DNA from: Nitrospirales bacterium
Lineage (GTDB): Bacteria; Nitrospirota; Nitrospiria; Nitrospirales; UBA8639
NCBI GenBank assembly: GCA_012270585.1
Contig: JAAXIB010000068.1
Coordinates: 1-37,266 of the forward strand
Direction: 5' to 3'
DNA length: 37,266 nucleotides
Part shown: positions 1,266 to 1,419 of the stretch, piece after piece
How the letters are laid out: each line of letters starts with the position of its first letter
Numbering within the stretch: position 1 is the first letter of the stretch
Notes under the pieces: model-generated
The model's input: the letters and a program-made list of their open reading frames with translations, nothing else
What the model was told of the DNA's origin: nothing
The model's database searches: none
Translations under genes and position numbers: made by a program

Positions 1266-1310
1266 GAAAACAAAAGTGCCCTCCGAACGTGTTTTCGCAT
1301 TCGAAGGGCA
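1266..1310 (-). terminator. Intrinsic terminator within the leader of the secreted protein
   Basis: Arms 1298-1310 and 1277-1289 pair over 13 bp, followed on the minus strand by CTTTTGTTTTC. Two positions pair only as G-U in the minus-strand RNA and would be C-A mismatches on the plus strand, which fixes the strand. It sits upstream of, and in the same direction as, the secreted-protein gene, so it works as an attenuator or ends a short RNA. Confidence 0.65.
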
Positions 1311-1384
1311 ATGCATCATGGAACCGCGTTTGCCCGGGAACAAAGTCGCTGTTTCAGCGGTGCCCCCATTTGCTTCCCTCTCTG
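1266..1384 (-). ncRNA. Structured leader RNA with terminator (attenuator or riboswitch candidate)
   Basis: Read on the minus strand from a predicted start near 1384. A long-range stem pairs 1369-1378 with 1336-1344 (GGGAAgCAAA with TTTGTTCCC, one bulge) and encloses a perfect 5-bp hairpin CGCTG-AAA-CAGCG (1347-1359). Next comes GGGCAA (1335-1330), then a terminator hairpin at 1277-1310 and a T-rich tail. GGGCAA is complementary to TTGCCC (1311-1306), which forms part of the terminator's 5' arm, so a mutually exclusive antiterminator can be drawn. The secreted-protein start lies only about 30 nt beyond the terminator, so its mRNA should read through it. I could not match the fold to a known riboswitch class. 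It could also be an independent small RNA. Confidence 0.55.
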
Positions 1385-1390
1385 GTAAAC

Positions 1391-1419
1391 AGTATAGGCT
1401 TGTGGAACTCACGTTTCAA
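1391..1419 (-). promoter_or_regulatory. Sigma-70 promoter of the leader RNA/secreted protein
   Basis: On the minus strand TTGAAA (1419-1414) and TATACT (1396-1391) are separated by exactly 17 nt, five of six consensus bases in each box. Predicted start at about 1384. The structured leader begins within a few nucleotides of that point. Confidence 0.65.

Follow-up and report, generated by a model that had tools for sequence, protein, structure and literature searches.

A conserved short reading frame ahead of an intrinsic terminator in Nitrospirales: a candidate translation-controlled attenuator upstream of a secreted-protein gene

Organization of the locus

In the window (the whole 37,266-nucleotide stretch of Nitrospirales DNA analyzed here), a promoter, a leader RNA without other genes, and an intrinsic terminator precede a gene for a 153-residue protein (777–1238), all on the minus strand. 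The promoter (1391–1419) consists of the −35 element TTGAAA (1419–1414), a 17-nt spacer, and the −10 element TATACT (1396–1391); the two elements match the consensus at 10 of 12 positions, which bears out the consensus promoter and spacer length proposed in the initial annotation. The −10 element was identical in all seven genomes that we aligned, and the spacer was the variable part of the promoter. Transcription is expected to start near 1384, which leaves ~75 nt of leader between the start site and the terminator hairpin. The terminator (1266–1310) comprises a 13-bp stem (1310–1277) followed by CTTTTGTTTTC (1276–1266), with CTTTTGTTTT directly 3′ of the stem and a U-tract that is broken up (CUUUUGUUUU). 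As initially annotated, two of its base pairs are G-U pairs in minus-strand RNA, and these positions read as A-C mismatches in plus-strand RNA. The terminator hairpin was far more stable than shuffled sequences in 7 of 7 genomes (z −4.2 to −7.9), and its stem carries one compensatory pair change (A-U/G-C). The reality of this terminator is beyond doubt. It lies 28 nt upstream of the downstream gene's start codon, and there is good support for the earlier proposal of a regulatory leader whose intrinsic terminator must be read through to reach the gene.

Between promoter and terminator, we identified a ribosome-binding site, GAGGG (1376–1380), located 6 nt before the ATG of a 17-codon reading frame (1316–1369) encoding MGAPLKQRLCSRANAVP*. 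The leader reads GAGGG-6 nt-ATG GGG GCA CCG CTG AAA CAG CGA CTT TGT TCC CGG GCA AAC GCG GTT CCA TGA, and the TGA ends 5 nt before the terminator, a spacing that was invariant. The initial annotation had described this stretch as a bulged stem and had missed the frame and ribosome-binding site that fill it.

The downstream protein has a signal peptide, assigned by eye, and short repeats; its gene is preceded by the ribosome-binding site AAAGGAG (1252–1246). It matched no Pfam family and had no meaningful NCBIfam match. A repeat-rich relative with IGGTTFHNFSDGTSGTSN units is encoded without this leader in another genus of the family (L087, G017:C114). A tRNA-Gln gene lies behind the downstream gene in most copies of the leader, and an AIR-synthase gene (purM-like) lies on the other side of the locus. 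Between the leader and the purM-like gene, the window carries genes for a MazE-like antitoxin (1492–1722) and a PIN-domain toxin (1710–2126), which diverge from the leader; as several genomes of the genus differ in sequence upstream of the leader, this pair looks like an insertion.

Distribution, conservation, and folding of the leader

When 41 related genomes were searched at the DNA level, the leader turned up in 8 of 14 genomes of the source genus, in seven of them nearly complete, and a covariance model added one decayed copy, in genome G013; the two copies beyond the seven are truncated or decayed. Restriction to one or two genomes, which the initial annotation had said would count against the leader, was thus not what we observed. 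The leader is single-copy, with one locus per genome, one gene, and one genus, and judging from genome names and literature on lineage IVb (PMC12342949) this genus is probably sponge-associated. When the covariance model was run on the family (48 genomes) and the phylum (395 genomes), convincing hits were confined to the source genus, and weak hits in other genera (E 0.002–0.07) were mainly due to the terminator. In a search of 84,980 species, a 21-base core pattern occurred only in the source genus and in three Sulfurovum contigs, which carry nothing else of the leader and are similar to each other throughout this stretch; the pattern was absent from the viral contigs searched. Two further candidates were set aside: a second, 27-base match in the source genome (L009), which by eye had no leader around it, and 'AAGGAAAGCAATTGGGG' sites in several genomes, which belong to a different conserved sequence.

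In 7 of 7 genomes the leader frame had the same start, stop, 17-codon length, and ribosome-binding site, with no internal indel; the sole indel in the leader, in genome G005, falls after the binding site and ahead of the ATG. The TGA stop was invariant in the seven genomes while adjoining alignment columns varied. Taken alone, an open frame of 17 codons shared by seven sequences this similar is weak evidence. A binding site and an ATG opening a frame of 10 or more codons that ends within the leader arose in 0.6–1.4% of dinucleotide shuffles. Across the seven-genome alignment, mean identity was highest in the binding site plus frame (0.88); it was 0.75 at the gene's third codon positions, 0.60 in the promoter spacer, and 0.56 between the stop and the terminator. 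Within the frame, pooled pN/pS was 0.88 and identities at codon positions 1, 2, and 3 were 0.88, 0.81, and 0.89, respectively. Selection on the peptide is therefore not detectable and the constraint is on the nucleotides, so it may act on the RNA instead of on translation. The seven peptides (MGxxxKQxxC(F/S)R...) contain no run of control codons, and we found no selection on the peptide of the kind seen for arrest peptides of the TnaC/SpeFL type. For these reasons, we do not file the leader as a trp-type or arrest-peptide system. Control by glutamine codons, suggested by the neighboring tRNA-Gln gene, was set aside, as the frame has a single CAG. Codons 6–8 read K-Q-R in six of the seven intact frames, which corresponds to an R/K-x-R/K motif; we give this possible stalling motif little weight because G005 has K-Q-P, and the truncated frame of G011 also reads K-Q-P.

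Folding of the RNA bears on a different account, in which the leader would be a metabolite or ion riboswitch, the bulged stem would be its aptamer, and a ligand would shift the balance between a GGGCAA/UUGCCC helix and the terminator. The stretch from the start site to 1316 folded no better than shuffled sequence in any of the seven genomes (z −0.02 to −0.95), and an alignment fold of this stretch gave z −1.15, with 39 of 300 shuffles equally good. The long bulged stem with an inner hairpin, as initially described, does not exceed chance by this measure, and its inner hairpin is broken in G005. An outer bulged stem, P1 (1378–1370 with 1343–1336), covers the ribosome-binding site and pairs in 7 of 7 genomes, with only one varying pair (G-U, G-C, or A-U). 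Covariation of the aptamer type was not found among the homologous leaders, a comparison limited by their low divergence. We also rejected an alternative hairpin, AAACA/UGUUU, in which four of six pairs were invariant, the others were broken in one and three genomes, and no covariation was seen.

The possible antiterminator fared better. Its 5′ strand, GGGCAA (1330–1335), spans leader codons 12–14, and its 3′ strand, TTGCCC (1306–1311), overlaps the terminator's 5′ arm. The proposed pairing was kept in all seven genomes, in two instances through G-U pairs, and extending the alignment fold by the antiterminator strand improved z to −2.33, with 3 of 300 shuffles equally good, which gives the helix some support. 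Predicted energies were −6.6 to −11.5 kcal/mol for the antiterminator and −16 to −26 kcal/mol for the terminator. At ~8–16 kcal/mol weaker, the antiterminator is probably only able to delay the terminator; thus, of the two exclusive folds postulated earlier, the conserved pairing stands, but the two folds are far from equal in energy.

We consider the riboswitch account improbable. It draws on the conserved outer stem and its variable pair, on the alignment fold with the antiterminator, on constraint at the nucleotide rather than the peptide level, and on a terminator placed close to the gene as an expression platform would be. Against it, the presumed aptamer is no more stable than shuffled sequence and has its inner hairpin broken in one genome, the RNA occurs at a single locus per genome, before a single gene, in a single genus, and the conserved core reads as a ribosome-binding site, an ATG, and an in-frame stop. 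Also against it, the Rfam search that the initial annotation had called for found no match in release 15 at gathering or at loose thresholds. The part upstream of the terminator, where the annotation implied a riboswitch-like structured RNA, is not unusually structured and is more aptly read as a short leader frame.

A candidate attenuation mechanism and its alternatives

The leader contains a promoter, a conserved frame with a ribosome-binding site, and a terminator between the frame and the gene, the arrangement of a translation-controlled transcription attenuator; we regard such control of the secreted-protein gene as the probable, if far from certain, function of the leader. To model occupancy of the frame, we masked a ribosome footprint codon by codon in the leaders of four species, covering 14 nt before and 15 nt after the first base of the P-site codon. 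With no ribosome, or with the P site on codons 1–15, the probability of the terminator was about 1 in all four species; only with the P site on codons 16–18 did the probability at the base of the terminator fall to near 0, again in all four. As only these last positions blocked the terminator, we propose that a ribosome near the stop codon would give read-through and that any other state would give termination, although the masking is equilibrium modelling and kinetics could reverse the direction of the switch. In this proposal, RNA would start near 1384, and a ribosome would load at once on the GAGGG/ATG of the 17-codon frame. If the ribosome were absent, departed, or lagging, the 13-bp hairpin would fold, transcription would stop near 1266, and the gene would be off. 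If a ribosome were held on the last codons or the stop as RNA polymerase passes, it would cover the 5′ arm of the hairpin, allowing read-through and turning the gene on. As the RNA emerges, the GGGCAA/UUGCCC helix would be the first to form and may hold back the terminator for a time. Three parts of this proposal are inferred: translation of the frame, which way the switch turns, and its signal.

The fate of the locus in other genomes of the genus bears on this proposal and on a rival one. Both the leader and the signal-peptide region of the gene are missing from G012, and a deletion in G011 fuses the middle of the leader frame to the end of the gene. The leader is intact in G010, from which most of the gene has been deleted, and G013, which lacks the gene, has a decayed leader that has lost the ATG of the frame and an intact −10 element. 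These repeated losses indicate that the locus is dispensable and decays repeatedly. The loss of the frame's ATG and the −10 element together with the gene in G013 supports a role for the frame, and the retention of the leader in G010 counts against attenuation. That retention is the one case that suits a second alternative, which we judge as doubtful as the riboswitch, namely that the leader is a small RNA of ~120 nt, made from its own promoter and ended by its own terminator, and that the gene is reached only by leak-through. The terminator is strong, and short leader transcripts can act independently (PMC7815308); but the G013 leader decayed where the gene is absent, leader and gene were hit by the same kind of deletions in G011 and G012, and the gene's ribosome-binding site is kept right behind the terminator in all six genomes with both the leader and a complete gene. 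About as improbable, by our estimate, is that a constitutive promoter and a leaky terminator set a low, fixed level of expression, with the frame merely coupling the ribosome to RNA polymerase: the interrupted U-tract makes leak-through plausible and the frame has neither control codons nor a conserved peptide, but the whole leader is conserved above the neighboring DNA, and together with the unvarying 5 nt from stop to terminator this suggests a tuned device.

Leader-frame attenuation, the reading that we favor, has parallels among known systems. In the vmlR leader of Bacillus subtilis, too, a very short frame near the 5′ end carries its own ribosome-binding site, and an intrinsic terminator stands between it and the gene (PMC9226507). 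Peptide sequence matters little there, as the MIN, MDN, and MDK variants all work and the ribosome merely has to be present (PMC9226507), a mode of action that the undetectable peptide selection in our leader would fit. vmlR differs in responding to antibiotics and in having a documented anti-antiterminator/antiterminator pair; in our leader, outer stem and antiterminator do not overlap, and the gene behind them is no resistance gene. The ilvB-II motif of Corynebacterium was first taken for a structured RNA and then recognized as a leader frame of 15–17 codons that controls transcription (PMC10272879). Like our leader, it occurs once per genome at a fixed place, but its peptides abound in the amino acids that regulate it, whereas the leader studied here has no such run and its gene is not biosynthetic. 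In toiL of the topAI operon, a short frame senses the state of the ribosome, and the K-x-R stretch of our leader is reminiscent of R/K-x-R/K, a motif on which ribosomes stall in the presence of macrolides (PMC12121999). In contrast, topAI uses Rho and blocks translation, whereas our leader has an intrinsic terminator and reads K-Q-P in G005 and G011.

Two-codon leaders and implications for Nitrospirales

In other Nitrospiraceae, we observed a separate family of leaders in which a ribosome-binding site, ATG-NNN-stop, and a strong terminator precede a gene (L070, L120, and L122 in G015; L125 and L146 in G042; L126–L133, L138, and L142 in genus g9; L135 in G041; and L140 in G018). The ATG-NNN-stop arrangement was present in 20 of 23 model hits, one of these starting with TTG, and the third codon was TAA, TGA, or TAG. 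Up to four copies occurred per genome, and the genes behind them included those for response regulators and for CBS, Sel1, YHS, and Tll0287-like proteins. No meaningful Rfam match was found in the loci scanned. These leaders resemble the 17-codon leader in their ribosome-binding site, the AUG GGG that follows, the similarly strong terminator, and the bacterial family in which they occur, but differ in having a two-codon frame, several copies in some genomes, and other genes. Neither group's covariance model gave the other more than weak scores, which came mainly from the terminator, so a common origin is no more than a possibility. In two related leaders (L144 and L145, on contig C8 of G042), the frame runs on into the terminator as MGSVVRRRRISKK and MESVVRQKRISKK, respectively, with a strongly basic stretch at the codons that encode K-Q-R in the window's leader; one of the two precedes a multicopper oxidase gene. 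We think it unlikely that the 17-codon and AUG-NNN-stop leaders form one lineage-wide class of translation-gated terminators. Such a class would make the expression of many genes in nitrite-oxidizing bacteria (for secreted proteins, a multicopper oxidase, response regulators, and CBS and Sel1 proteins) depend on ribosome state.

Thus, what appeared to be an orphan riboswitch is more simply explained as a leader mini-gene and a terminator. Attenuation through a leader frame is a known kind of switch, and the leader is probably not a new metabolite sensor. A full-text literature search found no description of such leaders in Nitrospirales, and the leader points to translation-controlled attenuation in this order. 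If it holds up, the two-codon family would amount to a regulatory class in nitrifiers that is open to testing.
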